Positions 14,376 through 33,796 of a stretch of DNA of 64,000 bases are shown here, piece after piece (position 1 is the stretch's first letter; every line of letters starts with the position of its first letter). The stretch covers positions 3,534,001-3,598,000 of the forward strand of contig JAAXNY010000008.1 of assembly GCA_013420905.1 (NCBI GenBank). The letters run 5' to 3'. Under the pieces are notes generated by a model. The model was not told where the DNA came from. It did no database searches and saw only the letters and a program-made list of their open reading frames with translations. The stretch comes from Collybia mongolica (Eukaryota; Basidiomycota; Agaricomycetes; Agaricales; Clitocybaceae). The position numbers were made by a program, and so were the translations under genes.

Positions 14376-17300
14376 ATGAAATTCGAAATGGAGCTCCGTG
14401 CGCAAGCTTTATTGGATCAGCTAACAAAACGCGGCGAAGAAAGGGGTCATCAGTTCGTGCATCCAATTACCTGAAATGGTACTATTCACGAACCGTTTCG
14501 TTCGTAGGCCTGAAGTACTCGAGCCGGTTTGTACTCCAGGTGATACATCTTCCAGCCTACCATGGGAAGTCTGGGAGCTGGATGAACAGTTCTTCAAAGC
14601 CCTTTCTTGTTGGACATTAGATCACCCGGAGACATCCCTTGATCGTGTCCTTGATAGGATATCTGTTGGGATAGAGACAAGTCGAGATATTTTCTCTCTC
14701 ATACCTGATCAACCGTTCCCAGCCCGTGGCCTTGTCACCGCGCTCGCTCATCTCTTTACTCTCGGTGTGGTGCGTGGCTCGTCGTCAATGAGGCTAGAAC
14801 CCTGACTCCTCCACCCCTCAAGGCTGTCTCGCGCGCCGCTGCCGAAGTTCAAATATTTGCCAAACAGATTTTACATTGGGTCATCCACGTGAAATCGGCA
14901 TTCGACTCAACTCCCAATGGTCGGTTTTCTAGAGCAGCTTGGAGAAATCTTGCACATATGCGGTGAGTCGAGACCACCTATGTTATGCAAGACGGAAATC
15001 TTAATCTCCATCTAGGGAACTAATCGATGAGATTTGTAAATGGGCAGCAACTAGACTGGTTCCAAGGGTTCCTCTGGTAATGCAAAATGTTGCTAAAATC
15101 AGTTATAGCAGGATGGACGATGGTTACGTATCAAACATGGACTAACTATTCACAAAGAAATATCCGAATTCAAAGTTCGCATAAGAGAAGCTCAACACCT
15201 GTTTATGGTATGACTCTCGCCCTGATTTGAACATTTAATTTCATACATATTCAAGGACCTGTCTATACTAAACCTATCCTCGGGCACTGATGAAATCAGG
15301 CGGGATCTCCAAGGCCATTTCCAAAATCAAGAATCAGGTATAACGCTTGAGATTGAGAAGATTAAATTATGCCAAGCGGATCAGTTGGTGGGTCGTCAAC
15401 CTTTAATTCTGTAAATTCGATTTTGATTACCAGTGTTAGACGCGCATCGTATCTGAATTAGATAAACAAAAGCAAGCTGCAGCACGACGCATGTTTTTAT
15501 CAGAGACACTGATCCCGCACACAATTGAGAATCCAACCTACGTACACCAAGGAAAACAAACGTGCGATATTGGCACCCGCGTTAGCGTTCTGAACGACAT
15601 AGTTGATTGGATTTATGATATCGCACGGGGGTCTCGGAACTTTCTGTGGCTCACAGGAGATCCTGGCTGTGGGAAGTCCGCCATCACGGCGTCTATTGCC
15701 AAAGAGTGCAAAGATAAACACGTGTTATGGGCGCAACTCTTCATCAATCGCAAAAACGACAAGACGACAAATCCAAATTCCTACTTTCCATCTATTGCTC
15801 GACAATCTGCTGACCGCTCATTGGAGGTGCAGCGCGCCATACACGACGTTCTGGTAGAGCAACCCTCCCTGGTGGATGATATAAATGTCGACCAAGCTAC
15901 GAAGCTGTTCGTGGATGCCGTCAGAGTGGCGTGTTTTGTGGATGAGAAGTCTCCCGTAGTCGTGGTTATTGATGCTCTAGACGAGACAGATCGAACTCGC
16001 TTGAAGGAAACTGCAACGATATTTTCTCGCTTGTTCGAGGCCCTCAAAGAATATCCCAATGCCAAAATCTTTATTTCGAGTCGGACTGAAGACGACATAT
16101 CTAGTCCTTTTGCCCGTACTATCAGTGACAGGTGTGTAAAGCACATCCACCTGGATACGTCCTCTCTGTCGTCAATCAACGATGTCGGGACCTACTTGAA
16201 GCGACGATTGGTCCAAATTGTCGAAGAACATGATCTCGACTGGGAGGTTTGGCCAGGAGATGAGCGCTTACAGAGGCTGATCAACCGGGCGTCGGGTCTA
16301 TTCATATGGGCAGTGACGGCTACCAGATTCATCCAACAACAGATCGAAACGCTTGGCACCGAATGCCTCGACGATATTCTCGATTTGTTGAACACCGAGA
16401 ATATGGCAGACGTCAGTGTGCTTTATAATACGATTCTCCGCCTGGCCTACCCTCCCGTGTCGCCCGACTGGGAATTCGGGAAGTTCCGCAGAATAGTGGG
16501 TGCGATTGTTGTTCTACGGGAGCCGCTGTCTCTCGCCGACCTTGGTATCTTGCTTGATTTACGTCGATCCCCAACAAGCACCCCTGTCGACATAGTTACC
16601 TTTGTTCGTCGACTACGAACGTTACTGGCAGCCGGAACAGATGCAATAACTCCACGAACAATTCCAAGACTGCACAAATCTTTCTTTGAGTTCATCACCA
16701 GTGAACGCGTCGATAGTCGCCTCCGCATCGATCAAGAATATGCACGTATCAAACTAGGCCATCAGCCTCTTGGACTACCATCCCGACTAGATAGTTTCCG
16801 GATCTATTCTTCGAAATGGGAATCTGCCCGCCAGTGGTTAGATGCCAACCAAGCTGATCTCTTCAACTACATATCCACCCAGGATGGGCTTACCGTCGCA
16901 GACAAGGTTCTGTGTACAGGTTGGATCAAAAATCACGGAGTAATCTATCAGGTGAGTTTCCTGTGTGCATGTTCGAATTATTTGCTGATTACCACACAGC
17001 GTGCTACTATATACATCTACAAACTCCTGAAAGCTGATTACGCTGATAATAAGGCAACAGCTGATCACCTGGCTGAGCTCAAGGATTATATTCGAACATG
17101 GAGCTCTTGGGACGTGACCGGGGCTATCACCCAATACTATACCGTCCGTGATTGTTTACGTGCATTCCCTGTTTGGAAGGGAGGGGAAGATTTTCGGAGG
17201 ATTACCGAGTTAGATACAGATTCAATTTGTGCTCGCCTCTATCTCACGCTGTATGACCGCGAGCAGTACCAAAGGCTCATGGGACAGCCTGAGGCGCAAA

Positions 17301-18577
17301 TACAGATGGCGCTCAATCTGCCACAGGCGGTCCGTTAACGACTTTCTTCTTTTGAGTCCGTATCTCATCTTATCCTGATCACCTCAGATGCTCGATTCTT
17401 TATCTCTCGACGAGTCATTCAGGGGCTCATTTTTGCAGGCCCTGATCAAGTTGTCCATGGAGACTGGTTTATATCCCGATAGTCTCCTCCAACAGGATGT
17501 TACATTATGGAATAAGCCCATATTTTCAGGGATTTTCAGGACTATTTGGAAGGGCACACACAAGGGCAAACTCGTCGCTATCAAGGCCCCAAGCGTGTAT
17601 GCACATCATAATAGTGGGGAACAGCTAGAGGTTAATTTCCACTGCTGGCGCCGCTTATAGTGCTGACGGAGTTGCTGCACAGTTTGTCCGAGAGGGACTT
17701 TTATGGCGTCAGTTGCACCATACTAATATCCTTCCCCTTCTTTGCATCTTTCGTGGAAATAGCAACCACTCAAGAATTGGTTTGGTATCACCCTGGATGG
17801 AGAATGGTGACATCGAAGACTTTCTAGATAGAACGCCTGACGCGGATCGTGTGTCACTAGTGAGAAACCCAATCGATCTCAAAAAATATGAGGCTGACTT
17901 ACCTATTACTCTGCGCAGGTTCGAGATGTTGCCAAAGGCCTCGAATACCTCCATACTATGCAACCGAGCGTTGTTCATGGAGATCTGAAGACTGTAAGTT
18001 TGATTTATGTTTTAGTTTTTTTGTAAACCAATAATGTACAATGACGATGTCTAGGCCAATATTCTAATCACGGATGCACATCGGGCCTGTATCACAGATT
18101 TTCGCCTGTCGACAGGCTATCAGTCAGAACTATTAGATTTATCTCTGACATCCCTAAGGGCAGAAACGACTGGACTTAGATTTATGGCCCCTGAGTTGTT
18201 AGATGGGGAAGAATGCGTGGATTGTACCATCAGCAGTGACGTCTATGCTTTTGGATGCGTGTTGTACTCAGTACGAGATAAATTTTCACTTGAAACATTA
18301 GCTTGAGATCGCTGAATGGATTGTTCAGGTATTCTCGGGAAATAGGCCATTTTATGATGCAGGCAGCGATTATACTGTAATCATGAAGGTTATCCAGGGA
18401 GAACGCCCCCCACGCCCGTCTCAATGTGCACCATCAGGTGCGCCGTGTGGCAGTATAGGTTTAAACAATATTATGTGGGGTATAGTGGAAGACTGCTGGC
18501 TCCAGGATCCCACGGCGCGTCCCACCACAGGCAAAATCCTTGCGCGCTTCCCTATCTCGGCATCTCGAGATGTGTAG
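14376..18577 (+). CDS. NACHT NTPase with C-terminal kinase domain, copy 2
   Basis: STAND-type signalling protein. About eleven introns can be placed by comparison with copy 1; the main NACHT exon runs from 15447 to about 16950. Visible parts: an N-terminal helical region of about 280 residues; a NACHT domain with P-loop GDPGCGKSA, Walker B VVVVIDALDETD and sensor-like KIFISSRTEDD; a helical region with LHKSFFEFITSERVDSR; then a kinase of the TKL style. The kinase has the lysine motif VAIKAP, the catalytic loop VVHGDLKTANIL, DFRLS in place of DFG, FMAPELL, SSDVYAFGCVLYS and the C-lobe WGIVEDCWLQDPTARP, with the stop at 18575-18577. The start is uncertain. The copy-1 homologous ATG is at 14376, but that frame meets a TGA near 14472. 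The frame that continues into the rest of the protein can start at the ATG at 14476. Fungal NACHT proteins act in non-self recognition and cell death; this role is inferred. Confidence 0.82.
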
Positions 18578-19802
18578 TGCATCCCTTCCACGAAAGATTT
18601 TCAAATGTAGATAAGGTGTTTTTTGGAGGATACGCAGAACCTCATAACCTGTGTCCGCTAAAAAGAATATAACAGAATATGCATATCTGGATTCACCACT
18701 TAACAACCGAAATGGCAGTCGAAACAAGTGGGAGGCCTCGCTGGTTGTACGATTTAGATCGAGAATCTATGGGATGGCTAGAGCCTCTTATCCATTCGGT
18801 GTGACCCGAAGGATGAAATGCATAGCATTAAATCGTCAACATGCGATCGAACAAACAGCATAACAATGAAATTGCGTGGATTCTAGCTATGATTATGAGT
18901 ATCAGTTGTACACAATAAGGTCAGCCCATAACGTTCGTCAATGACACAGCCATCTCCCCTTCGACCTGAGACCACAACGGATTTACCCCTCCCGGTCCTT
19001 CCTCCAATAAGTTCTTTTCGAGCCTGATTACTGGGAGGAAAGTGACTTCACATAACAATTACATTTCCCAGCCGGCTGGCGTGCCCCTTTACCTTCTCGG
19101 ACGTTTGACAGCTTCTTTTGCTGAGAGCACTTCCTTAAACGCCTTGAATGGGATTAAATTAGATGGATTGAGTCTCTACCGGGTCTTGTGTGCTCACCAT
19201 CCTCGTTCAGAAATATATTCCACGAGGACCACAGACCGTGTGAAAAAACTCAGACCTAAATTAACCATGTCTTGGAATCGCTTTCTGGAGTTGGTGATGT
19301 ACGACTTCGAGGACTGGTGGGAGGAGGCCATTTACGATAAATGTGGGCCTTTGAGATTCGGGGCAACGGTGCAGCTGGGCCGGGACCGCCCACCCACACG
19401 CACACACTACCATTGCTTTTACCCCCAACTTCCAAGTGTCATGGCCCCTTCATCTGACGTACATCCCACATCCTCACCCGGCCGTTCTCCAACAATACCC
19501 TTTGCGATGTCTGTTTACTTCCCTCCACTCGACCCACCGATGGAAGGTGTAAGAGGTCAGTCTGGGCAATCTGGGCGGTGTTAGTCATTATTCAGAAGTT
19601 CAACGAGTCAGGTACCCGATGCTCGTCAGCTATGATTTTTTTTAAATACTATTCTCTCTACCACGTTCGCCACCTTGCCTTGTTTTTGGGGCCTGCCGCG
19701 CATACATGTGGTCATTCGTTGTTCTCTTCAAAGCTGCTGAGGATGGAGCTTGAATGCACGATATCGGTAATTGTAGGGTTTTCCGAGTGATTGTTATGGG
19801 AA
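18578..19802. other. intergenic, one weak ORF
   Basis: Spacer between NACHT-kinase copy 2 and the large transposon. One frame (19042-19584, 180 codons) is open but has a run of Pro/Ser at its end and no motif I know. I do not call it a gene. Nothing else is supported here. Confidence 0.4.
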
Positions 19803-19815
19803 GAAAAACAGGTAG
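19803..19815. repeat. possible target-site duplication, left copy
   Basis: GAAAAACAGGTAG directly abuts the left inverted repeat. GAAAAACATGTAG, with 12 of 13 positions equal, occurs at 33784-33796, eight bases beyond the right inverted repeat. It may be an aged target duplication or a chance match in an A-rich context. Confidence 0.35.
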
Positions 19816-20088
19816 GTAAGCTACAATGTAACGTACCATACGGTCCAGCGGGCGTATACAATGTAGTGTATGGTACGGTCCGCGGACGCTACATTGTCCG
19901 CTACAATAGAAATATGTAACTACATGTAATCGTACCATGCGGTTCTGGCGGACCACGCACGGCCCCAACGGATAGATATGTATTTCCGCGTGGCCGTACG
20001 GTATTCATATTCGGCATGGACTACATGTAGTCCTCGGCCATGCGGCAATGATAGTGGGCCACACACGGCCCCATCCGTGTGGCCATAC
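19816..20088 (+). repeat. left terminal inverted repeat of KDZ element
   Basis: It runs from GTAAGCTACAATG to about CCCCATCCGTGTGGCCG and matches the reverse complement of 33502-33775 almost base for base. It contains internal short inverted motifs such as CATGCGG/CCGCATG and ACTACATGTAGT. Confidence 0.88.
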
Positions 20089-20562
20089 AGCAATCATATT
20101 CGGCACAGACTACATATGAGTCCTCGGCCATGCGGCAATGATAGTGGGCCACACACGGCCCCATCTGTGTGGCCGTATGGCAATCATATTTGGCACAGAC
20201 TGCATATGAGTCCTCGGCCATGCAGCAATTCTAGCGGGCCACACATGGCCGAATCCGTGTGGCCGTACAGCAATCATATTCGGCACAGACTACATATGAG
20301 TCCTCGACCATGCGGCAATGATAGTGGGCCACACACGGCCCCATCTGTGTGGCCGTATGGCAATCATATTCGGCACAGACTGCATATGAGTCCTCGGCCA
20401 TGCAGCAATTCTAGCGGGCCACACATGGCCGAATCCGTGTGGCCGTACGGCAATCATATTCGGCACAGACTACATATGAGTCCTCGACCATGCGGCAATG
20501 ATAGTGGGCCACCTACAGCCTATCCGAGTGGCCGTACGTCAATCATGTTTTGCACAGACTCG
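20023..20562 (+). repeat. left subterminal 90-bp tandem repeats
   Basis: Six units of 90 bp, the regular ones starting at CATATGAGTCCTCG at 20113, 20203, 20293, 20383 and 20473, after one degenerate unit next to the inverted repeat. Two unit types alternate: one with GGCAATGATAGTGGGCC, one with AGCAATTCTAGCGGGCC. The true period is therefore 180 bp. Arrays of this kind at transposon ends usually hold transposase binding sites. Because 90 is a multiple of three, a long open frame crosses the array, but I do not regard it as coding. Confidence 0.85.
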
Positions 20563-20738
20563 GCTTGTGATGATTAGCTTTGCAGTCTGAAATTGGTGCC
20601 GAAGTTCGGCCACAATGGAACAGACCCTCGGCACATGACTGTTGGCCTTGGAGCATACAATTGAGGTGAAAATTTGACCACAGTATATAATATAATAAAT
20701 CATAGGTGCAATTTAGTAGTTACAATTACTGTGCAGGT

Positions 20739-21333
20739 TCAGCTATGGGAGGCCTCTTGATCATTTTTGCTATCCACTGAGTTCCGGTATGCAATGGCTT
20801 GGGAAATGTCATCCCGGATAGCATTGAGTGCCTTGTAGGTAATGTCCTGTGCCTTTAACTTCTCTACTTCAGCCAGGTAGAGGCGATGGGCAGCATCTTT
20901 GTAGCTGATACCCAATTGCTGTTGCATGGACAAAGCCTCAGCATGTAGAGAGACCATTTCTCTGTCTGTAAGGCTCTGATTTTGCATGAAACAGAATGAA
21001 ATTGTAGATATATTGAGAAGGCTTACTGGATCTATGGGTACCATCACAGTCCCCTCGGCCACCATGCTGCCATACACTCCAGATGGATTGAATGGCTGTG
21101 TTAGTGGTGTAAATAATGTGTTACAGTTCAGGTTAGGTTAGAAGGTGACTCACACCTCTGCTGGATGCAAGATCCAGGCCTTGTTGGACTTTCTTTGCTG
21201 CTAGGGCATGCTTTGTGGCCGGCAGCAGGTACTTTGGGATGATGACTGATTTACCATCAATCATATAAGTTGGTATAATGATGGGATTCCCATCTGCATT
21301 GGCTATGGTGGTATATCCAGAGGGTGTATTCAT
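20739..21333 (-). CDS. KDZ accessory protein 1, unknown function
   Basis: Leftmost gene in the element. The ATG at 21333 starts MNTPSGYTTIANADGNPII. Two introns, a GT-AG pair leading into PFNPSGVYGSMVAEGTVMV and another between VPIDP and SLTDREMV, give about 155 residues ending DQEASHS. The C-terminal half is rich in Leu, Gln and Lys with heptad-like spacing (MQQQLGISYKDAAHRLYLAE), so a short helical or coiled-coil segment is likely. I know no family for it. It is transcribed divergently from the Zn-cluster gene, with only about 190 bp between the two starts, so the pair probably shares a control region. Confidence 0.65.
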
Positions 21334-21522
21334 TCTGGATGCAAAGGAAGGGAGTCGATCGGATGATGGAGATCAGACGGCTGCAAGTAGAGAGGCCGAA
21401 CGGGTCACGTGATACTTACGTAATGTCTGTGTTTTTTAAAAACTTTTGATGCTTGCCGTTTATCTTCAACCGCCACAAGCTGCCGTTGTAATCCCTGCCG
21501 CCTCTCATCCATCAAACTCAGT

Positions 21523-24367
21523 ATGCAACACATCACCAAAACTTCTGCAATCTCCTTGCTTGACAAGAAGATCCGATCCACAATCAAATCCGGGACACTT
21601 GAAAATGAATATGACCGGATCTGGCGTGAGGTAAAAAGCATCAAGGCCGAGCTGACAGGATCCGTCGGCAACACAAACCTGTTCATTTTTGAGTTTGTCA
21701 AAGAGGCTGTAAAGCGACAACCCATTCCTGTCCTGGCATCACGATTACCAGCAATCCTAAAGGAGTGGGAGCGGAATCATGAGGGTAAGTGGCAAATGAA
21801 CATATATATAAATCAAACATGTTCATCATTTCAGACACAGAGGGTCCAGTACAAGGCCTCGGAACAGCCAGCCGGGCGCCCACGGCTATCGGATTGCATG
21901 GCCGAAACCAATCCGAGGCCGACACCAGGCAATCCGTGCCCCCCAGCCGTGGCCAAAACCAATCCGACACCAATGCTAGGCAATCCGTGCCCCCCGGCCG
22001 TGACCAAAAGCAATCCGACACCAATGCTAGGCAATCCGTGCCCCCCGGCCGTGACCAAAAGCAATCCGCACTTCCTGGCCGTCGCTCGGCCAGTGGTGGC
22101 CGACATTCTGGTATTAGGGGGAATCAATCCGACGAGAGCGGGAGGATATCCATGGGTGACGGAAGGGCGTTAGGAGCAGGAGCAAGGCAATCCAGTAGGC
22201 GAGGGAAGCAATCCGATCGTGATGGAAGGGGCTTGGAAGGCGGCGTGAGGCAATCCGGCAGGCGTCAAAAGCAATCCGCAGTTGAGGCAACGCAATCCGA
22301 GGCTGGCGAAAGGCCATCCGACGACTCCGGATCCATTTACATTGCGCCTGGGAAGCAATCTGCTGGTGCTAGGCAGCAATTCAGAGCTGATGGAGCCATG
22401 GATGAGGGTCGTGCCAGAACCAATCAGCCCCGTGCTCCTCGTCGTTTGCAACCACGAAATGCGAGTCCTGGCCCCTCCCGTCACCGGCAAAATACCAACA
22501 TGGAGGTTGATGAGGCCCCATTCCGGTCATTTCAGGAGCTCGCTATGCTCTCAGAGGATGAGGAAGAGGATATACCGGATGTCCAGGGCACTGCCAGAGA
22601 AACCGAGGGGGAGACAGAACCGACACAGAAGAAGCGACGGATTGACAATAGGCCACGGCGCCGAGCTCAGCGGACAGGCCGCTACCATGCCGAGAAGTGT
22701 CTAAAATGCATACGAAGAAATCTTCCATGTGAGAAACAAGCCATGGGTGGAGCGTGCGTTGCATGCTATGAGGCAAAGACGAAATGCCTCCATAGCGGCC
22801 CAAGAGGGGGGAAAAAGAAGAAGGTTCTTGAAGAGTCTGAACCAGATTCAGATAATCCCTCCGATGTACAAGAGGAAGTGGTGGAACAGGCCAAGAAACG
22901 GAAACGAACAGGGAAAGCGGCGGCCCAAGGACGTGTGGACAAACCCCGGCCGGATGAAGACACGGACGATAGCCCCTCAGAGCAATGGAGGACGGAACGC
23001 CGAGCAGAAAAACGTAAGTTGTTCCCTTTCCACACACTACAATGCTTACTGAAATGCACATTGCAGGGCCACAAGACAAACACTTTGCTGCCGGTCAAAC
23101 CCGCCGCGGCCGTGTCCCTCCTCGTGAAAATGCCGACATGTCGCTCGCGGAGGCCAGCAGACGCTTAGTTGCTGCCTCATCTCACATAGGGGCATTATTT
23201 GCAGGTACAGAGGGAGCACCTGGCTTGGCAGATGTCCCCTCCCTCCTTGGTCATGCTATGGCACAAATTTCAACTCTGGAGAATCAAGTTGATGCCTTAA
23301 CGGTCGTCTATCGTGATATCGCGGAGTATCTTGGATTACCACTGGAAGGTTTGCCACGGGAACCGCGAAACCGCTACGACGAATTCCGACGGCCAATTAT
23401 TGTAACGGATGTACGGCCAGCACAGGAAACACAGGAATGGGTAAAGACTTGGCTACAGTATGGGGGTGAGTTTGACGATGGGGAGGCATGGTTGGAGCGC
23501 AAAACAATGCAACGCATGAAGGCGCGGCTAGCTCAGGCAAAGTATGAGAGGGAGCAATCAGTTGAGGGCGTCCAAACCCCTAGGGTAAGGGAAGTTGACA
23601 CTCACAACCAACCCCCCCCTCTTCTGCGGAGTAGTGATGCGGGGGACAGCCCCTCGAGGCAGGCCTCCATATTGGCCACGGAAGCACCACCAGTAATGGT
23701 GTCGGGAGCGGCTACTGACATGGATGTGGATAGTGAACTGGCCACTGAAGCTGCACAGGCCACTCAGATGGCACCGGAAACGGAGGTGGCTTTGGCCACC
23801 AGGATGCCCACGGCCACCACCCCACCTCCTTCGGCCACCGCCCCACCTCCTTCGGCCACCACCCCACCTCCTTCGGCCACCGCCCCACCTCCTTCGGCCA
23901 CCGCCCCACCTCCTTCGGCCACCACCCCACCTCCTTCGGCCACCACCCCACCCGCTTCGGCCACAACTCCTTCGGCTGTGGCCACCACAGCACCTCCTCC
24001 AGCCACAACACCTCTGGCCACAATACAAACTTCGGCAGTGGCACAGCCCAACTCAATGGCAGAACACGGAATGGATGCAGCATCTACACTTGAATCCTCA
24101 GCTGCATCGTCCAATCCAATTGTGCAGCTCATTCCTGCAACCCCAGCTACATCACAGGAAGTGCCTACCGGTCCCCAATTGCTTGTTCCACCATCACTCA
24201 ACCCCCCACCAATGCCTCACAGGCGTTCTCCCCGCCTACATGCCAGAAGTATTAGCCCCCAGCCAGGAGATGAGGGCACTCCAATACGGTTATCACCTCA
24301 GCCTGGTAAGCGGCCTCTGGAGCCCAGCTCTTCGGAAGTGCCCTCCACCAAAAAAATTAGAAAGTAG
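21523..24367 (+). CDS. KDZ accessory protein 2, Zn2Cys6-like cluster
   Basis: Three exons: 21523 to about 21783, about 21833 to 23015, and about 23067 to 24367. The N-terminus (MQHITKTSAISLLDKKIRST) is helical. A long Arg/Gln/Ser-rich low-complexity region follows, then a basic stretch (KKRRIDNRPRRRAQ). Next is the cysteine cluster KCLKCIRRNLPCEKQAMGGA continued by CVACYEAKTKC. Its spacing is C-x2-C-x6-C-x8-C-x2-C-x6-C, which fits the fungal Zn(II)2Cys6 DNA-binding cluster. A helical middle region (LGHAMAQISTLENQVDALTV) may dimerise. The tail has about eight TAPPPSA repeats and ends RPLEPSSSEVPSTKKIRK, with nuclear-targeting basic residues. Proteins of this cluster type bind CGG triplets, which is notable given the motif enrichment in the element. 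A zinc knuckle of other function remains possible. Confidence 0.75.
21905..22075 (+). repeat. 51-bp tandem repeat rich in CAATCCG
   Basis: Three imperfect 51-bp units with the core GGCAATCCGTGCCCCCCGGC, each carrying two CAATCCG heptamers. They lie in the second exon of the Zn-cluster gene and are read there as RQSVPPGRDQKQSDTNA-like repeats. Confidence 0.8.
23805..23965 (+). repeat. 21-bp tandem repeat (TAPPPSA)
   Basis: About eight units of CCACCTCCTTCGGCCACC plus three bases, coding TAPPPSA or TTPPPSA in the Zn-cluster protein. Every unit includes TCGGCCA, one of the words that is over-represented across the element and in its subterminal repeats. Confidence 0.85.
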
Positions 24368-24451
24368 TTGATTTCTTGTAGACATATTTGTTCATATCTT
24401 GTACATGTAAATATCAGTGCTCATCAATATACCATACATGTAAATATATTT

Positions 24452-27054
24452 CTAATCATAATCTGCCCGGAGTTTCTTCTGTCTGGTCCGCTTGGCAGAA
24501 GTTCCATATTTCTTTGCTTCCTCAGCAGCCAGTGCATCAGCATTCACCATCTTTCTTGAGACTCCTTTCTTCCTTGGCATAGGTCTATTGGCCGGTGGTG
24601 ACTGTGTGTCAGGCAACGGCAGGTGCACCAGGTGTGGCCGATGGGCCGGAGGTTGCTCATCAAGCTGAATGGCTGGTGGTGACTGTGTGTTAGGCAACGG
24701 CAGGTGTGGCCGAGGGGTTGGAGGTTGCTCATCTAGCTGACTGGCCGGTGGTGACTGTGTGTTAGGCAACGGCAGGTGTGGCCGAGGGGTCGGAGGTTGC
24801 TCATCTAGCTGACTGGCCGGTGGTGACTGTGTGTTAGGCAACGGCAGGTGTGGCCGAGGGGTCGGAGGTTGCTCATCTAGCTGACTGGCCAGTGGTGACT
24901 GTGTGTCAGGCAATGGCAGGTGCACCAGGTGTGGCCGATGGGCCGGAGGTTGCTCATCAAGCTGAATGGCTGGTGGTGACTGTGTGTTAGGCAACGGCAG
25001 GTGTGGCCGATGGGCCGGAGGTTGCTCAAGCAACTCAGGGTCAATTGGAATAGTGACCTGTGCTGAATTTGCCGTCATGCCTGTCGTAGTGTTGTCGGGC
25101 ACGGCATGCTGAGAGTGTGTATCTGCAATGGTGCCAAGATATTGGGTCATCTGGCTGGAAACTAAATAAAGCGGTTCTCCATCATTTGGGCCGTTGACAG
25201 GCAGCATGTTGTAACCAGCGCCTTGCAATCCCATTACCTCTTGGGTGCTACAAGGCCAATAGAAACCTTCTGCCGCTGGTGTTTCCACAGCTGAGGCTCC
25301 TATGGCCAAACTTTGGGTTGCTGGGGGTTGGACGGCCAATGTTTTTGTGGCCGGGAACTGGATGGCTGCCATTGTGGCCACATCCTTCGGCCTGGGCTTC
25401 CTGGGATTTACATGCCTACCCTTGCCCTTTCCTGTGGCAACACTGGGGACTCCATCATTATATAGGGTGGTATACTCGGCCACACATCGGTCCTCTCCAT
25501 ATACCACATGGGAAAACCGGAATGCTGCCGCAGCACCATACAGGACTTGGCGCTCATGGATATGCTGTAAAACATCCAATATCTCCCCCTTTCGCATGTT
25601 CTGTGGGTCTTGGATTTTTATGTGGTCTGGCAAGTACTTGCTGGGAATGTACAACTCTGGATTCAATATAACTTGGCGATAGGGGACATGAGTAGTACGG
25701 TTGTTGGTTGCAAGCTCTATTATCAACATGAGATCTCTAACTTCTCCAAACTGAAAAAACTGCTTCAAGTACTCACTGTAGTGGTATCCCCAGTAACGCC
25801 GTAGCAGGTCAGTGAGTTGAAGTTTTTTGAGTGATGTGGATTTGGATATTGGTGACAACTCTGGGAAGGTGTTTGGCACTTTGATATCCAACTCTGGTGG
25901 GATGGATGGCTTGCCCACCCCATCACCACCACTTTCCCGAGTACGAAGTGACTTTACATAGTCCAATAATTTTCTTTTGAACTGCAAGACAAGATCCTTT
26001 TCTGTATCAAGAAACGTTGGAGATGGTACACCCATGTTTGTAGCCATCTGGTCATTCCTTGTAGTACCTAGTCAGTTTGAAGCAACTGGTATAATGTGGA
26101 AAATACTTACGCATCTACCACTAACCTACCATCTGTGGTGTGGTAGACCATGAATGTAAGAGTCAACATCCCCATTTCCAGGTATCGTTCCATGGCCCAT
26201 TGCTGGACCCGTTTATCCCCCTGTTTAGCAGCCAGCCTAGCAAACAGATGAGCATAATGTCATGCCAATCAACCACATTGCATTGGATTGGATTGCCCAC
26301 AAGATGTGCCGATCGGCCACCACGGATTGGATCGGATTGCCAATTGCGGCCACCGCGGATTGGACCGGATTGCCAATGGCGGCCACCGCGGATTGGATCG
26401 GATTGCCAATGGCGGCCACCGCGGATAGGATCGGTTTGCCAATCGGCCACACGGATTGGGTCGGATTGGCCAGAGTTGGCATGGACTCACTCATTTTGTT
26501 TTGTTGGATCATGGCCCTGCTGCTTAGTCTCTTCAACTTTCTGCAAAATCACATTACGGGCCGTATCATCCATTTTGTCATACACTGCTTTTGCTGCCTT
26601 GTTTCGTTTCTCAAAAAGTTGTTCAGTAGTTGGTTCACCTTCCAGTCCAAGTATTTCCTTGACCTCCTTGCAAACCTCTTGTGGATGGAGCCTCCAAACC
26701 ATATCTAACCGTTTGACATGGATTGTGGGTTTTGGTAATGCATGGTTAGCTTTTGTCCGCCAATTATTGGATATCCAATTTGCAAGGTTCTACATTGACA
26801 ATCAGTCCTGGTGTGACATGTGCAATATGTTTATTCACCCTTGCCCGTCCCAACCTTTCCTCCTCATTACTACTTTGCTCGCCACGCATTTCCCAGAAAT
26901 TGAACATGGCTGGCAAGATTTGTGACCTTAGTACATTACCTCTGCCAGCTCTGTCCATTTGCAAGAAATATTGTTCCTTAAATCCATCAAGCACTTTGCG
27001 TTCATCAGGAGTGTAGATACAATCTTTGCGGGCTTTCCGTGGAGAAGTTGCCAT
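24452..27054 (-). CDS. KDZ accessory protein 3, unknown function
   Basis: Five exons on the minus strand from the ATG at 27054 (MATSPRKARKDCIYTPDERK). Splices can be placed: a 50-nt intron between LGRAR and NLANWISNNWRTKANH; a 254-nt intron (26237-26490) after GHDPTKQNE; and one more before NDQMATNMGVPSPTFLD. The stop is at 24452-24454. The first part has WISNNWRTKANHAL and LQKVEETKQQ, likely helical. The middle (LTDLLRRYWGYHYSEYLKQ) is also helical and ordered. The C-terminal third is seven 24-residue Pro-rich repeats (QLDEQPPTPRPHLPLPNTQS), then a basic end (KRTRQKKLRADYD). I recognise no catalytic motif. It sits tail to tail with the Zn-cluster gene (85 bp apart) and head to head with the transposase (about 290 bp between starts). 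Confidence 0.7.
24590..25045 (-). repeat. 72-bp coding tandem repeat
   Basis: About six to seven units of 72 bp (24 residues each) in accessory gene 3, with the core GGTGGTGACTGTGTG and GGAGGTTGCTCATC. The outer units carry an extra HLV insertion, so the array has evolved by unequal exchange. Confidence 0.8.
26305..26470. repeat. intronic 33-bp repeats with paired CGGATTG sites
   Basis: Within the intron 26237-26490 of accessory gene 3 are five units spaced mainly 33 bp apart. Each unit holds two direct CGGATTG words exactly 10 bp apart: 26323/26333, 26356/26366, 26389/26399, one degenerate pair, and 26452/26462. GGCCACCGCGG joins the units. The spacing of one helical turn inside a non-coding intron suggests protein binding sites. 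Confidence 0.75.
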
Positions 27055-27342
27055 GTTGTGCCTGAGGAAGAATTAAGGGTTCCAATTTAAGTCGGCAGGG
27101 TGGATTGCATGCTTAATAAATATGCTGGGTGTAATCCACATGATCGGAAAATCTGCAATCAGATAACAAACCATGTGGTGATGATGATGAGATTAAGTGT
27201 CATCATTGCCCCTCATGACCGGCCTGATTGATTGATTGGCCCTATTGGCTATTTCTAGCTTGAGGTAGTAATGATAAAATGGGTTTGATAAAACATATGT
27301 GCATTGCACACCTATCCCCACCTCAATTACTAGCAGAACACA

Positions 27343-30300
27343 ATGTCCCATCCACCTGCAAAGAAGAGACGCATCAAGAAAAATGTCCTGCATGAAGATG
27401 ATGATCTTGCATTTGATTCTGTTACCATAGAGCGTGTACAAGTGAAAACACAACGAGGCATTGTGGAGAAAAAAGTGGAAGTACCACTACGTCCAGCAAT
27501 ACATGGTGGACAAGGGGTATCAGGTCAACCATGGGTTGAAAGTGTAACTGAGACATTGATTGATACTGGCAATGACCCAATTGATCTGGATAATAGCCAG
27601 CCGGTGGCATCACAGGGGAAGGTAAGTGCATTATGAAAAGAGTCTGAAACATACTAAATGCATAGCAGGACCAATCATATTACTTGCAAGAACATGCGAA
27701 ACATTGGGAAGGTATATTACAGGCTCTCCTAGCACGTGAATCTTTGCCAGAAGGCAAATGCAATGTATGTGCCGAACGGGAGGCTCGCTGGCGTTGCCGA
27801 GATTGTCATAGGGGCCGGATGATGTGCCGTGGGTGTTTCCGACATTACCATCAGGACAATCAGTTGCATCGCATTCAGTATTGGACTGGGGAGTATTTCC
27901 GGGATGCGGCACTCTGGGAGGCGGGTGTCTACATGTTGGTTCAACATCAAAATGGAGCACCAATATGTGAGGCCTTAAAGAAGCAGATGCACACTCTAAA
28001 CATGTTAGAAGAAAGTACTGATATTGCTGAGGAGCAAAAGGCATCTGAGGCACCAGCTGGAAATTCAAGATCGGCATCAGCATCGGCATCGGCATCGGAA
28101 TCGGAATTGGCATCGGCATCGGCATCGGCATCGGCATCGGCATCGGCATCGGCATCGGCAACTCAGTATCACAGGGTCTCGGATTGCATGGATTTACCAT
28201 CATGGCAAAGAGAAGATCATGATAATGAGGCAGATAGAGACACTATGCTCGAAGAGGATGATGAAGAACACATAGTGGAAGATGAATTGGGCTTCCGTGT
28301 ACCTGCCGTGCCAGATGTGGCCGAGGACCTGCCATCGGTCAATCCGGCATCCAAAAATGCAGCCAGACGGCCACCTCGCCAAGATGCTCTGGTCAATCCT
28401 TATGTCCGCGTGGTTCATACAAATGGCATACATCACCTGGCACTTGTTTCCTGTCCATGTCAGGGATCGGATTGCCTTCCATCAGACCTTGTGTTTTCCG
28501 GTCTGATGCCAACAAGCTTTGAAACAATCCGGACAGTGTTTACACTGGCTGTCCTTGACGATTTTCGTTTCTCTAGTCTAGAGCTTAAAGCTTCAGCATA
28601 TCAATATTTTCAGCTGCTCAGGCGTTACACAAACCCCATGGCTCCAGCAATGGTACCAAATATATACCATGAACTGCGTAGGCTTTCTCGTATTTGGCGA
28701 TGGATTAAGAAGTTGAAGTGGGCCGGATTCGGCCATGGAAAGGCCAATCCGGAGAATCCGGCACCGGGTGAAATGGCCATATTTTGTCCCACCTGCCCCC
28801 AACCTGGAATCAACCTGCGTGATGATTGGAAAACAGATGAGAACAGGTAAGATACAATCCAGTGTCTGGTTCTCATTGCATAACCATCTGTGGGGTTGCA
28901 GATGGGTATATCGGCCATCGCTTACGGCTGATGGAAACTTCAAGGCTGACCATGTGCGGCAGAAGGGCATTGTGAAGGATGTCTGGCTATCAGAGGGTGG
29001 TGGAATGATGGGGAAAAGAGCTGATTATGAGCAATTTTTGCTCTCTGCTAGGGAACGCAAAACGGTAAGCCCCTTTGCTGAAGATAAGAATGATTGAAAA
29101 AACTGCATATGCTCAGAAAGCACCATGTGAAAACAAGTTCCGGGCAGTAGAACAGGCTCTCCTTGCATCTAAGGCATGCGATATCACAGGAATTGTGGCT
29201 ATTGCATGTGCCCGTCATGGATGTTTTGTTCCAAACAGTATTGCTAACCTTTACCAAGGTGAACAGCAAAAAAACATTGATTGGTCATTTCTCAAAGCCC
29301 TGGAGGCTTTTGGGATTGATCCAGATCAAGGTGTGACATTTATATATGATATTGTCTGCCAATATTGGGTTTATTTACACTGGCGGATCGGCCACTTGCT
29401 ACCGGCCGGATTGCAAGTAGATCCTGCAATTGGTCTATTTCATGTTCATGGGCACAAGGAACAGTGTTTTTTTCGGTATGCTACCTCATTCATAGCAGGT
29501 GCTGGAATGGTTGCAGGGGAAATTCTGGAATCTCTGTGGGCAGGGCTGAATTCGGTATCACCGGCAATGCGAACGGCAACGCTGGCACATCGGGCTGAAA
29601 TGATGGATGATCATGTCACAGATTCAAATCACAAGAAAGGCTTGAACATGGGTGTGTACATACTCCACTAGGCCAATCTTGTTGCTAAATATTTTCAGTG
29701 TCCTCATTGTGCAAACAATTTGAAGAGGCCCAGACCATGGCAAAGCATGCTAATCAATATTTCATGAACATGACAGATGCCATCCCAATAGAGAACACTC
29801 AGGTGTGGGAACAGGAAATAAAGATGGCAGAGGACCAGCATTGCAATAACCCAGCCATGATGGATGTCCTTGCAACACGGAAAGTCAGTTCGGATCCGGA
29901 AGCGGATTCGGCCAATGTCGGATTGCACACTGGCACAAGTGAAGGTGAAAGGTGGATACAGTTAGCGCTTAGCATTGAGGAGCAACAGTGTGTTGTAAAC
30001 CTATGGCTTGCAATTAAAATACTCAATAACCTATTAGGCTGGACTTACAAGATCGGGTTCTCCGCCTCCGGAAAAACCCACGGGAGGACAATCGGCAAGA
30101 AGTGGAACGGCTTCGGCAACTCTTGGTTGCATTGATGGACAGTTTGGACAGTGTGAAAGAGGAAATCCGCATAGGCTTTCACGAGCTACGCAGATTTGAG
30201 GACAGCAATATGCTCGGACACTTTGAAAATATTGATGGCATTAGTTCATATTCCACAGACAACAATCCACTGGCCAGTGCAGGGATTGGCCTGGAGGAGC

Positions 30301-31076
30301 CACTTTTGATTCCGCCCGAAGATAGGGTACTGTCTATGCCCTCGACATGCCTGCCATCCACCCATCCGTACTGTGTAATGGAACTCCGGCAACGGGAAGA
30401 GATGGCCGATCGGCATCTATCTGCCCTTCGTGCTGTGATTGCAGACAAATCCTTCCAGTATTCACACGTCATCCGCAATGCTCCACGGAAGGCAGTTACA
30501 ACCCGTTCACGGAACCAGATATCCAAATTAAATGATCAGATTGCACTGCATTGCCGTGCATATGGCCGATGCCGTGCGGCCATGATCCGGCTCGGCGCCG
30601 ATGCTGACACCCTGAAAAAATATCAATTATTGCAAAGGGAGGATGTAAAGAGCAGTACTGCTATTTTGGACCCAAATATACCAGGATCAACCAAGGTGAA
30701 GCTGTCATGGATCTGGCAATATCATAATGTCAATGATATGGATGCAGCATCACTTCTTGAATGTAAGTATGCTTGTAAACCAAGCCGCACAGTGCTAATT
30801 AATAATAATCTAGTTAACCGTGTGCACTGGCTTCGCGCCCGAGCACATAAACATCGCTGGAATGAGGAAGCAATATTAGTTGGCTATGAGATGGAATGGA
30901 CAGTCCGTTACTACCGTCGACAAGCAGACATCTGGAAGGAAAGACGAATAGATACCAGGAACTCAGCTGGCGCTCAGGCATACGCTGCACGGAAATCGGC
31001 CACTTGGGTTACAATTGCCGAGGCCGCTCAATGGCAGTTTGAGGCCGTGAATCCGAACTTTGAGCGGATTGCGTGA
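27343..31076 (+). CDS. KDZ transposase with CxC2 cysteine cluster
   Basis: Main transposase of the element. Seven introns can be placed (after SQGK, DENR, ERKT, GLNM, EEQQ, LLE and one more by homology). The ATG at 27343 begins MSHPPAKKRRIKKNVL. The CxC2 zinc cluster follows: CNVCAEREARWRCRDC, then CRGCFRHYH and LHRIQYW. A Ser/Ala low-complexity hexamer run comes next. The KDZ catalytic core has LTADGNFKADH (first Asp), FIYDIVCQYW (second Asp) and AGEILESLWAGLN (Glu), with HVHGHKEQCFFRY between. The C-terminus has VNRVHWLRARAHKHRW and EEAILVGYEMEWTVRYYRRQ as in other KDZ proteins. Order, spacing and residues all fit a functional enzyme that cuts and joins element ends. It is transcribed away from accessory gene 3. 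No nonsense codon or frameshift was found. Confidence 0.88.
28072..28160 (+). repeat. GCATCG hexamer microsatellite in transposase
   Basis: About 14 units of GCATCG, with GAATCG and GAATTG variants, coding an Ala/Ser run in the transposase linker. A hexamer keeps the frame when it changes length, so it can vary freely between copies. Confidence 0.85.
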
Positions 31077-31162
31077 CCGGCTTATGTAACAGCTGACCAT
31101 ACTGATCAATATTGATAAAATAAAATCCTTTTCTTATCATTGTGCCTACAAACTGTCTTAAG

Positions 31163-33301
31163 ATGCCCAAAGCTTACCTCACTCTGTTTGACCCCCTCAT
31201 TATCAATGGAGCAGATACTTTAATTGAAGATCTGGATAGTCTACAAAGGGTGATCTTCTATTGTGAATCACGCTTCCGAGCAGCACTATCTGCCATTGCC
31301 CAAGCATCCAGCAGGGCACAGGAAGCACTACAGATTAACCTCTTTAATGAGTTGGTATGTCCCCTAATTTGGCATGTTTTTGTGTACATTCCAACAAATT
31401 TTCAGGATTTTGCTTTGGCATGCATCGGATCGGCCACTGCCACTGGCCGCAACATACAGATCCCAATCATAACCAGATCCCTTGCTGCCGCTCGGTCACT
31501 CACCACATCCGATCAGCAAATGCTTGACTACTCAGAGCCATTCAAGTTGTTACTTGATGCTAGCACCACCTACAACGATCCTACTGCAGTTGTTGCCAAA
31601 TATCAACTGAGCTGGTGGGTCGGCCGTGCAAAACTGGCAAACCCTTCCCACTATATCAACAGCAAGACTATTGGAAAAGCGCTGAGGTTCGATTTGAAGT
31701 ATCGTTCTGAAGTGGCCCAAGCAGCAATACCATCTGCCGTTGATATGCCAGTATCAGCAAACACATGGCCGATCGGCCAATCGGCTCGGCTTGATTTCCC
31801 AATGGCCCTCCAAGGTTTGCAGCGTCGGGTTGATGCTCACATAATCTCTCAGTACAGCCAAATGAGACAAACTATCCGGCGCGCTTCTGGCTTTAATGAA
31901 TTATTTGAAGCTGCCGTGTTGAAAGAGACTGAATCCGTGTTCAGGGACAATCCGCTGCCAATGCGGCAGCGAGCCACCCTCGGCCACACTGTAGAGGATG
32001 AAGCCCGTGCAGAACAACAGCGGCTAGAGTCAGCACCACTCCTCAAATGGTCCGCTGGTATCACTCTATCTATGGATGATGTCCGCCAGCTTGTGCGCTC
32101 AGATAACCGTGATTTTGCACAGCCACATTCTGGGTATGATGCAAGCCTGGCCGATAGCGCGGAAAGTGGCAGTTATTCTGATGCCGATGAAACCTTCCCT
32201 AGTGATGTACACTTCAGCCCACTCAGCAAGGATATCCAGGATCCTCCTGAGCTGTCCCCCCTTCAAATACCATCTCACTTTTCTTTTTGGCCTTTAAGGT
32301 TTGGAAAATCAGGACACAGTGGCAGGTATCCATCGGGAAAACTCCCTACTCACACTCCTGGTCTGGATCTCCCTGGCATGCCGAGCTCGGCCATGCTGGC
32401 CGTTGGTTCAACTGCACCGTCCCCCGCACCCCATCCTACCCCATTAGCACTAAACAAAGATACCCATATGTCCACAGATAGTCAGGCAGGTCCCTTATCC
32501 CCCCAAGCAAATATATCTTTCATTTCTTCCACTGACATTCCGGCGGCCGATCGGATTGCTTCCTCACTGGCACCAGCGCTGGCATCTCCCATGCCTACAA
32601 TTTTGCCTACTCCTTCGGCCCCGCACCACCGTGTGTTTATTAAAGCCCGGCCAGTAGATCAGGCATCTTCAGATGATGAATCAGCCCCCCCCCAACGTAT
32701 CACGCAAGCCCCAGCCCGTGTACCCACCATAGCTGCAGCAGCCACAATGTCGGATTGGGTTGGTGATGCCGCGTCGGCCACTCCAACTTCGGCCATGGAT
32801 GCAGTGGCCATGATATCATCGGATGAGGGAAGTCATCATGGCTCCGCTTCAGCCCGGGATGCTGTGGCTATGATCTCATCTGACGAGGGAAGTCATGGGG
32901 GTGCAGCCAATCCATTGTCAGCTCTTGCTGCATTGGCTATGATCTCGGATGCGGAAAGTGGTGCTGCTTCGGCCACTCCAATTTCGGCTATGGATGCGGT
33001 GGCCATGATATCGTCGGATGAGGGAAATCATCATAGCTCTACTTTGGCCACTGCAATTTCGGTCCTGGATGCAGTGGCCATGATATCATCAGATGAGGGA
33101 AGTCATAGTGGCTCAGCTTCGGACGGGGAAGGTGGTTCCGCTTCAGCCGCTGCAATGTCGGCCATCGATGCAGTGGCCATGATATCTTCAGATGATGAAC
33201 CACTTGTACATCCAGGTCCATACAATGCGGAGTCTTTTAGAGATGTTCCCGACACCTGGCTGGACTATACAGGTTCTGGATCTGATGGGGAATATTTGTA
33301 G
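31163..33301 (+). CDS. KDZ accessory protein 4, SIM-like repeats
   Basis: Begins MPKAYLTLFDPLIINGAD at the ATG at 31163, 87 bp after the transposase stop and on the same strand. One in-frame intron (after NLFNEL, about 31353-31405) is likely. The first 300 residues are ordered and helical (LQRVIFYCESRFRAALSAIA, YQLSWWVGRAKLANPSHYIN) with no family I can name. The second half is low complexity. Near the end a motif of the form AMDAVAMISSDEGSH recurs about six times: a hydrophobic core VAMI, then acidic and Ser residues, the pattern of SUMO-interacting motifs. The TAG is at 33299-33301. A role in nuclear recruitment of the transposition complex is a guess. Confidence 0.65.
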   Translation: MPKAYLTLFDPLIINGADTLIEDLDSLQRVIFYCESRFRAALSAIAQASSRAQEALQINLFNELVCPLIWHVFVYIPTNFQDFALACIGSATATGRNIQIPIITRSLAAARSLTTSDQQMLDYSEPFKLLLDASTTYNDPTAVVAKYQLSWWVGRAKLANPSHYINSKTIGKALRFDLKYRSEVAQAAIPSAVDMPVSANTWPIGQSARLDFPMALQGLQRRVDAHIISQYSQMRQTIRRASGFNELFEAAVLKETESVFRDNPLPMRQRATLGHTVEDEARAEQQRLESAPLLKWSAGITLSMDDVRQLVRSDNRDFAQPHSGYDASLADSAESGSYSDADETFPSDVHFSPLSKDIQDPPELSPLQIPSHFSFWPLRFGKSGHSGRYPSGKLPTHTPGLDLPGMPSSAMLAVGSTAPSPAPHPTPLALNKDTHMSTDSQAGPLSPQANISFISSTDIPAADRIASSLAPALASPMPTILPTPSAPHHRVFIKARPVDQASSDDESAPPQRITQAPARVPTIAAAATMSDWVGDAASATPTSAMDAVAMISSDEGSHHGSASARDAVAMISSDEGSHGGAANPLSALAALAMISDAESGAASATPISAMDAVAMISSDEGNHHSSTLATAISVLDAVAMISSDEGSHSGSASDGEGGSASAAAMSAIDAVAMISSDDEPLVHPGPYNAESFRDVPDTWLDYTGSGSDGEYL

Positions 33302-33354
33302 TATATATGTATGTAACTGTTGCTGCTCTCTCAGTATTGGAATACAAATCTAGC

Positions 33355-33501
33355 CGTTGGCCATCGATGCTACACTATTGCCATATGGCTCAGGACTATA
33401 TGTAGTCCGTGCCGAACGTGATTGCTGGATGGCCGCACGGGAAAACATGTCTATCCGTTGGGGCCGTGCGTAGTCTGCTGGAACCGTATGGTACAACTTG
33501 G
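33355..33501 (-). repeat. right subterminal degenerate repeat units
   Basis: Just inside the right inverted repeat are two or three diverged copies of the end motif (GGACTATATGTAGTCC, TCTATCCGTTGGGGCCGTGCG, GGCCATCGATGC). They match pieces of the terminal repeat but do not form a clean 90 bp array as on the left. Confidence 0.55.
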
Positions 33502-33775
33502 TGTACGGCCACACGGATGGGGCCGTGTGTGGCCCACTATCATTGCCGCATGGCCGAGGACTACATGTAGTCCATGCCGAATATGAATGCCGTACGGCCA
33601 CGCGGAAATACATATCTATCCGTTGGGGCCGTGCGTGGTCCGCTAGAACCGCATGGTACGATTACATGTAGTTACATATTTTTATTGTAGCGGACAATGT
33701 AGCGTCCGCGGACCGTACCATACACTACATTGTATATGCCCGCTGGACCGTATGGTACGTTACATTGTAGCTTAC
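33502..33775 (-). repeat. right terminal inverted repeat of KDZ element
   Basis: Mirror of 19816-20088, ending in CATTGTAGCTTAC. A few substitutions and small indels separate the arms, for example a run of five T where the left arm has CTA. Confidence 0.88.
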
Positions 33776-33783
33776 ATATGTGA

Positions 33784-33796
33784 GAAAAACATGTAG
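33784..33796. repeat. possible target-site duplication, right copy
   Basis: GAAAAACATGTAG matches the 13 bp just outside the left end with one mismatch. Eight bases (ATATGTGA) separate it from the last base of the inverted repeat, so either the right end of the element is longer than the inverted repeat or the match is accidental. Confidence 0.35.

Follow-up and report, generated by a model that had tools for sequence, protein, structure and literature searches.

Plant transposons are known to have dispersed recognition words of their own, which have been reported outside coding sequence. VANC proteins of Arabidopsis VANDAL elements have such words, YAGTATTAY for VANC21 and AGTTGTCC/AGTTGTAC for VANC6; VANC21 localises to non-coding regions, and coding probes without the motif were bound poorly (PMC5735166, in the parts covered). 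Spm/En elements pair the protein TnpA with CACTA subterminal repeats, whose GC-rich part is discussed in Spm as a methylation-sensitive site (PMC2613891, likewise in part). A third point of reference is the Kyakuja lineage of TET/JBP-bearing KDZ elements in Agaricomycetes, with Kyakuja-1_LB and Kyakuja-2_LB, and transposon TET/JBP enzymes have been proposed to help escape silencing (PMC12730594, covered portion). Here we describe a KDZ element (A, a family A copy) at positions 19809-33782 of a 64,000-nucleotide stretch of Collybia mongolica DNA (the window; contig C8, 3534001-3598000, of the 46-Mb assembly used for all genome searches). Two words, the heptamer CGGATTG/CAATCCG (hereafter W1) and CGGCCA, are under DNA-level constraint on both strands and in several frames in one KDZ lineage.

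The element shares with VANDAL a short word that runs through one transposon family, largely in tandem repeats that differ between relatives, and, if the predicted binding and demethylation occur here, element CG methylation would be at stake in both (PMC5735166, same parts). Unlike VANDAL, it has a KDZ rather than a Mutator-type transposase, carries two words instead of one, and holds them also in exons (25/33 W1), in several frames and on both strands, above synonymous expectation. The likeness to Spm/En consists of an accessory DNA-binding protein, here putative, and short repeats kept by non-autonomous copies (PMC2613891, same parts); unlike Spm, the words stand in the interior and in coding exons beside the ends, and both the transposase and the accessory proteins are others. 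Subterminal words take the form of W1 arrays in the derivatives, and the subterminal array of A is of CGGCCA type only. The KDZ transposase, 7-bp target duplication and 5'-CA..TG-3' termini agree with Kyakuja-1_LB and -2_LB, which differ in having no terminal inverted repeats, whereas the ends of the window element match over 173 bp at 98% (PMC12730594, same portion). The words subterminal, tandem repeat and zinc are absent from the main text of PMC12730594. The literature, judged on titles and abstract openings, yielded no description of words dispersed through KDZ elements, nor did the parts covered of PMC12730594, PMC5735166, PMC10398659 and PMC2613891.

Abundance and layout of W1

The element holds 33 W1, between 21890 and 32757, against a mean of 1.97 and a maximum of 8 in 3,000 dinucleotide shuffles, which rules out chance as their source. 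The whole window has 37; the four outside the element (4304, 5019, 57594, 62858) leave the host flanks at or below chance, with 2 observed and 3.07 expected in 19.8 kb and 2 and 3.72 in 30.2 kb. A preliminary description of the sequence had put the count at about 35 for a chance value of about two, which was close, and had named shuffled controls as a possible refutation; these gave far lower counts and did not refute its claim. It had seen only one copy in the flanks, which was too low, though four are no more than chance, and its interval, 21880..32760, was too short for the element. W1 sites in the element are as follows.

21890..22299, minus strand: W1 cluster 1, with 12 CAATCCG and 1 CGGATTG; a 51-bp tandem array (21905-22068) makes up part of it
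22638..22644, plus strand: dispersed W1 in the gene for a Zn2Cys6-like protein (Zn gene)
26314..26468, plus strand: W1 cluster 2, a 33-bp array with 8 CGGATTG (26323-26468) and 5 CGGCCA-type words, in a predicted intron of accessory gene 2
28180..28186, plus strand: W1 read Ser-Asp-Cys, transposase, private to A
28340..28346, minus strand: W1 read Val-Asn-Pro, transposase, common to A, B and C (second lineage, below)
28468..28474, plus strand: W1 read Ser-Asp-Cys, transposase, private to A
28525..28531, minus strand: W1 read Thr-Ile-Arg, transposase, common to A, B and C
28745..28751, minus strand: W1 read Ala-Asn-Pro, transposase, shared with C only
29407..29413, plus strand: W1 read Ala-Gly-Leu, transposase, private to A
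29919..29925, plus strand: W1 read Val-Gly-Leu, transposase, shared with B
31065..31071, plus strand: W1 read Arg-Ile-Ala, transposase, private to A
31948..31954, minus strand: W1 in accessory gene 3
32552..32558, plus strand: W1 in accessory gene 3
32751..32757, plus strand: W1 in accessory gene 3

Two repeat clusters account for 20 of the 33 copies. The 12 minus-strand copies of cluster 1 (21909-22299) all fall in one frame and are read as Gln-Ser, so those copies are not independent. With tandem arrays masked, A retains 18 W1 against 1.5 in 100 shuffles, second in rank among heptamers; five of the 18 (22125-22299) belong to the Gln-Ser region beyond the program-called array. Exonic copies comprise 8 in the transposase, 3 in accessory gene 3 and 14 in the Zn gene. 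Outside cluster 1 they occupy three frames in plus orientation and two in minus, and the sixth frame is supplied only by the Gln-Ser cluster, so that the description of W1 in every reading frame was nearly right. Single-base neighbours of W1 total 56 against 34, with the largest excess in CGGATAG, CGGATTC and TGGATTG; because they are only mildly raised, W1 is a fairly sharp word.

Two words in two lineages

The second lineage comprises the family B stretch (L029-L030) and locus C (L033-L034), which are one family; C is a CpG-poorer copy that has 96.6% identity with B across the transposase region. A and B share 71% DNA identity over the same region, and the B transposase exons have 54-89% protein identity to A. 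Ten accessory segments of A were searched. Five are matched in B at 36-77% identity (Zn gene and accessory gene 2), including second and third Zn-gene exons with a B homologue at 37-39%, and the B stretch gave no match to accessory gene 3. Six are matched in C; these belong to accessory genes 2 and 3 and, for the Zn gene, to its C-terminal part alone, without the zinc cluster.

B has 31 W1 and C has 18; array masking leaves 14 in B, where 100 shuffles give 1.7, and 10 in C, where they give 0.66. Among the eight transposase W1 of A, three are identical in B, one more in C and four are private to A; as background, 11.7% (92/788) of CpG-holding heptamers are identical from A to B. Related copies, the other check named at the outset, gave a mixed outcome: they lack half of these sites, and B and C have three transposase W1 outside the array at places other than those of A.

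A second word, TCGGCCA/TGGCCGA, was missed in the preliminary description. With 46 copies against a shuffle mean of 1.95 and maximum of 8 (3,000 dinucleotide shuffles) it outnumbers W1, and the commonest word is therefore other than W1. Array masking leaves 23 against 1.3 in A (100 shuffles), the top-ranking heptamer. TCGGCCA itself is not common to the lineages (7 in B, 1 in C); the common core is CGGCCA. W1 near CGGCC/GGCCG words numbers 19 against 3.1 in B (0/5000), 12 against 5.1 in A (68/5000) and 5 against 1.2 in C (45/5000).

Three homologous low-constraint places hold arrays of unlike build in A and B. In A, the transposase linker contains (ATCGGC)15, the accessory gene 2 intron a 33-bp unit that includes both words, and the Zn-gene linker a 21-bp CGGCCA unit. 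The corresponding places of B contain, in the same order, an 18-bp W1 unit, four spaced W1 and a unit in which both words occur. Arrays with W1 or CGGCCA make up 6/7 of those in A, 5/7 in B, 5/9 in C and 6/6 in a derivative, L039 (N), and 0/1, 1/7 and 0/2 in the more distant KDZ stretches D, E and F. Further arrays of A, beside the W1 clusters, include the following.

19985..20560, no strand: left subterminal 90-bp tandem array with 12 CGGCCA-type words and zero W1
23811..24006, plus strand: 21-bp array with 8 CGGCCA, Zn-gene linker; the family B array there has W1 and CGGCCA
28070..28160, plus strand: (ATCGGC)15 array, transposase Ser-Ala linker; the homologous position in families B and C is taken by an 18-bp W1 array

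Protein constraint

Synonymous-codon shuffles, which hold protein and codon usage constant, rule out protein constraint for the transposase and make a weaker case in the other element genes. Without the (ATCGGC) array, the A transposase has 8 W1 against 1.8 and 8 TCGGCCA against 1.7, each reached in 0/1000 shuffles; of 2,488 heptamers TCGGCCA ranks first and W1 third, the second being a shifted W1. With the array included (2,503 heptamers), W1 ranks 10 and TCGGCCA 7, behind array words among others, each at 0/400. The protein alone sets the W1 expectation in the A transposase at about 1.8-2.2. Outside arrays, W1 ranks first in the B transposase (6 against 0.69, 0/400, 2,311 heptamers) and in the C transposase (6 against 0.79, 0/400, 2,160 heptamers). 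When transposase hexamers are ranked under the synonymous null, AATCCG and CGGCCA take the first two places in A (1,459 hexamers) and likewise in B (1,366). Orientation is mixed in the transposase gene of A, with 5 W1 on the plus and 3 on the minus strand and a split of 5 and 3 for TCGGCCA.

In accessory gene 3 of A, W1 occurs 3 times against 0.43 (15/2000; 3 against 0.52, 6/400, in a repeat run), and its 10 TCGGCCA were reached in 0/2000 shuffles; the gene of locus C has 2 W1 against 0.47 (25/400). The Zn exon with its cluster has 14 W1 against 5.68 (0/2000), and past 22300 it has 1 against 0.34 (122/400). Zero W1 was present in the third Zn exon and in the accessory gene 2 coding sequence tested. 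The early proposal that the DNA word is kept and protein is not the cause is supported by the synonymous shuffles, by occurrence on both strands and in several frames, by the lineage at 71% identity and by derivatives without a coding match.

Derivatives and distant KDZ stretches

Non-autonomous stretches are dense in W1, with 24 in 3.5 kb (L031) and 30 in 3.7 kb (L039). Most of these lie in mirrored arrays, plus at the left and minus at the right, with unlike units of 31 and 32 bp, and A-like terminal repeats occur on derivatives (demonstrated for L031). Neither L031 nor L039 matched the inner part of B, and L031 matched none of the A proteins. L040, a related copy that looks older, keeps 3 W1. 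A 1.2-kb stretch is 92% identical between L040 (1079-2299) and B (L029-L030, joined, 10909-12131), possibly another inserted element.

D (L035-L036), E (L037-L038) and F are 12-14 kb stretches cut around more distant KDZ transposase matches, so that element ends and distant genes may lie outside them. Raw W1 counts in D, E and F are 2, 3 and 3, and none of the three stretches matches A accessory proteins at E 0.001. Against shuffles, D has 2 W1 where 2.2 are expected and shows no strong word (E and F were judged on raw counts only). A private word for every KDZ family is unsupported: D has none, E has GTTATAA mainly in one 1.1-kb block, and F has nothing marked (raw counts). In the joined E stretch (contig C21), 24/25 TTATAA fall in a 1.1-kb block (8743-9876) after the transposase match, many as GTTATAAC, and 13 CGGACTC lie past that block at 10918-12260.

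Across the genome, a W1-containing 10-mer occurs 67 times against 17 for the reversed control. Among the matches listed for it, eight loci were studied; two match A (10 and 6 W1), and six match none of A, B, C and N (1 or 2 W1 each).

CpG loss and mutation of the words

CpG transitions are the biggest substitution class in 6/6 copy comparisons. The observed/expected ratio of CpG is 0.64 for A, 0.67 for B and 0.30 for C; the host flanks have 0.95 and 0.73, and D, E and F have 0.93, 0.90 and 0.75, which makes for an uneven contrast. DNA-methylase-family matches are present in the genome. Older copies have kept 0.77 of W1 CpGs (110/143), 0.70 of those in other CGG (1062/1517) and 0.72 of non-CGG CpGs (490/676); these totals were summed by hand over 6/8 comparisons, omitting the near-identical copy A1 (33/33 kept) and the reverse comparison, C to B (9/13). 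A mutational refuge for CpGs in W1 context is ruled out, as W1 CpGs decay about as fast as others.

A candidate reader

The Zn protein of A has six cysteines in the spacing C-X2-C-X6-C-X8-C-X2-C-X6-C, which agrees with the canonical Zn2Cys6 spacing. Zinc clusters of the classical type make contact with CGG triplets in DNA. For W1, the lead candidate reader is this Zn2Cys6-like protein, because both words contain CGG, because its homologue accompanies W1 in A and B, and because the cysteine spacing recurs in B. A search of solved structures with the Zn protein gave no lead, nor did an alignment of the N-termini of accessory gene 2.

What the words may do

Enrichment is beyond dinucleotide and synonymous nulls, on both strands and in two lineages, with site turnover and with arrays on different units. 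This suggests that the words are putative landing sites, used by the element itself or by something in the host to recognise the element's DNA. We tentatively prefer, with doubt slightly outweighing belief, the reading that W1 and CGGCCA are recognition sites of an element protein, used in a VANC-like way against host CpG methylation or silencing. Selection would then keep both words throughout the KDZ lineage, in exons, introns and subterminal repeats; a predicted element-encoded DNA-binding protein would read them and so distinguish its element from other genomic DNA; and that protein may spread over the element and counter CpG methylation or silencing. The VANC-like use fits best because the words cover much of the element, including coding parts, and because copies show CpG loss. 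As to purpose, we would put anti-silencing a little below an even judgement and TnpA-like transposition in the unlikely range.

TnpA-like transposition sites or host-factor sites fit nearly as well as the VANC parallel. For transposition, an accessory protein would bind internal and subterminal copies and compact the element or pair its ends; exonic copies would add capacity and silencing would be beside the point. TnpA recognises subterminal repeats as cis-determinants of excision (PMC2613891, covered parts), most W1 of the non-autonomous copies lie in mirrored arrays within shared terminal repeats, and the 90-bp subterminal array of A is filled with CGGCCA-type words; however, the W1 of A lie outside its terminal repeats and that array, and W1 is spread along its transposase exons, where end-pairing would not need it. 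We regard transposition as an unlikely but serious explanation. Sites for a host zinc-cluster activator or silencing factor, exploited by the element or targeting it, are improbable. CGG-based sites are common among fungal zinc-cluster activators, and the element-encoded binder is itself a prediction, but the words are enriched in one KDZ lineage and not in D or the host flanks, raw counts in E and F are low, and silencing by the host should favour loss of sites.

That the words have zero DNA-level function, their excess arising jointly from duplication in tandem, repeats in the proteins and a bias in codons or CpG mutation, is very improbable and largely refuted. It would draw on the clustering of 20/33 W1, with 12 encoding one Gln-Ser repeat, on the raised transposase expectation set by the protein, and on the lower ranks of both words when the array is left in. 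Yet the excess survives array masking and synonymous shuffles, arrays of unlike units repeatedly hold the words in A, B, C and N and seldom in D, E and F, and the CpGs of W1 mutate as other CpGs do. Least credible of all is a signal that acts in RNA, for instance as exonic splicing enhancers or as seeds of small RNAs: 25/33 W1 are exonic, but the two orientations in the transposase gene disfavour it, and W1 also occurs in a predicted intron and in derivatives.

Several observations weigh against the VANC-like reading and its candidate reader. Zero W1 occurs in the terminal repeats of A, in its first 2.1 kb and in 22645-26322, and the strict core CGGCCA near W1 is not significant in A (6 against 2.9, 435/5000). 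The PF00172 match of the Zn protein, at 18.1 bits, falls short of the cut-off of 21; its residues 330-560 have no homologue at E<=0.001; the zinc-cluster frame of B is interrupted by an in-frame stop; and a single-sequence structure model of 83 residues of the zinc cluster is poor (mean pLDDT 54). Accessory-gene content is not cleanly matched to the words across A, B and C. Independent lineages number only two, A and B/C, and transposase sites private to one lineage would, alone, be statistically weak. W1 CpGs in older copies are not clearly protected. One host flank (0.73) and F (0.75) come near the 0.64 of A, so that CpG loss speaks only weakly for a silencing of A specifically.

TET/JBP had no match in seven translated stretches of the element. 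The sole TET/JBP match found in the genome lies on contig C5:4428003-4428410, outside the copies studied. This KDZ lineage may escape silencing otherwise than by TET/JBP. A fuller account, which we consider possible though rather doubtful, is that a KDZ lineage without TET/JBP has a self-recognition of its own, independent of VANC: a two-word exonic code with little regard to frame or strand, refilled by fresh arrays in disordered linkers and introns and read by accessory proteins to escape CpG methylation. Both words recur in a lineage 29% diverged in DNA, and they stand in exons beyond protein needs. If an element protein does read them, fungal transposons would have, in addition to TET/JBP capture, a second means of marking their DNA as their own. 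Both words can serve at once as DAP-seq probes, and the synonymous-null test can be applied to any transposon for hidden address codes.

Structure and copies of the element

Exon limits of the element genes were drawn from open frames, and at least three accessory genes are present (Zn2Cys6-like, accessory gene 2 and accessory gene 3). The remaining features of the element are listed below.

19802..19808, no strand: left target-site duplication AGAAAAA, 7 bp
19809..33782, no strand: complete KDZ element of 13,974 bp, a family A copy with termini CAGG...TGTG; limits from fetched copies and terminal-repeat matches
19812..20093, plus strand: long terminal inverted repeat of the left end, with its inner limit approximate; matches the right end over 173 bp at 98%
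21523..24367, plus strand: Zn2Cys6-like accessory gene, exons about 21523-21785, 21840-23013 and 23069-24367, based on open reading frames with splice sites unconfirmed
22698..22787, plus strand: zinc-cluster-like motif C-X2-C-X6-C-X8-C-X2-C-X6-C, Pfam Zn_clus 18.1 bits, under the cut-off of 21
24452..27054, minus strand: accessory gene 2, several predicted exons, containing a 72/144-bp array with CGGCCA at 24589-25028
27344..31076, plus strand: KDZ transposase gene, 7 predicted exons, with 8 dispersed W1 and 8 TCGGCCA
31163..33301, plus strand: accessory gene 3, two predicted exons, with 3 W1 and 10 TCGGCCA; homologue in locus C at 46-56% identity
33498..33778, minus strand: right long terminal inverted repeat, inner limit approximate
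33783..33789, no strand: right target-site duplication AGAAAAA, 7 bp

Within the terminal inverted repeats, 20000-20093 and 33498-33591 are 97% complementary, and 7-bp duplications flank five further element copies (by eye, in the flanks of fetched copies). The transposase matches the profiles PF18758 KDZ (4e-39) and PF18803 CxC2 (4.1e-15). Its relatives at E<=1e-20 number 298, and those named among the matches listed (120 of 298) are fungi that we take to belong to Agaricomycetes. Twelve transposase matches in the genome, including the window copy, are at 91-100% identity, and further element copies and shorter derivatives are indicated by the transposase and by many terminal-repeat matches. 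The ten copies fetched have 10 to 33 W1 each, and 5/10 have 31 to 33. Near the element, a host open frame at 15491-17338 encodes 615 aa, and some of its relatives are named NACHT-domain proteins.

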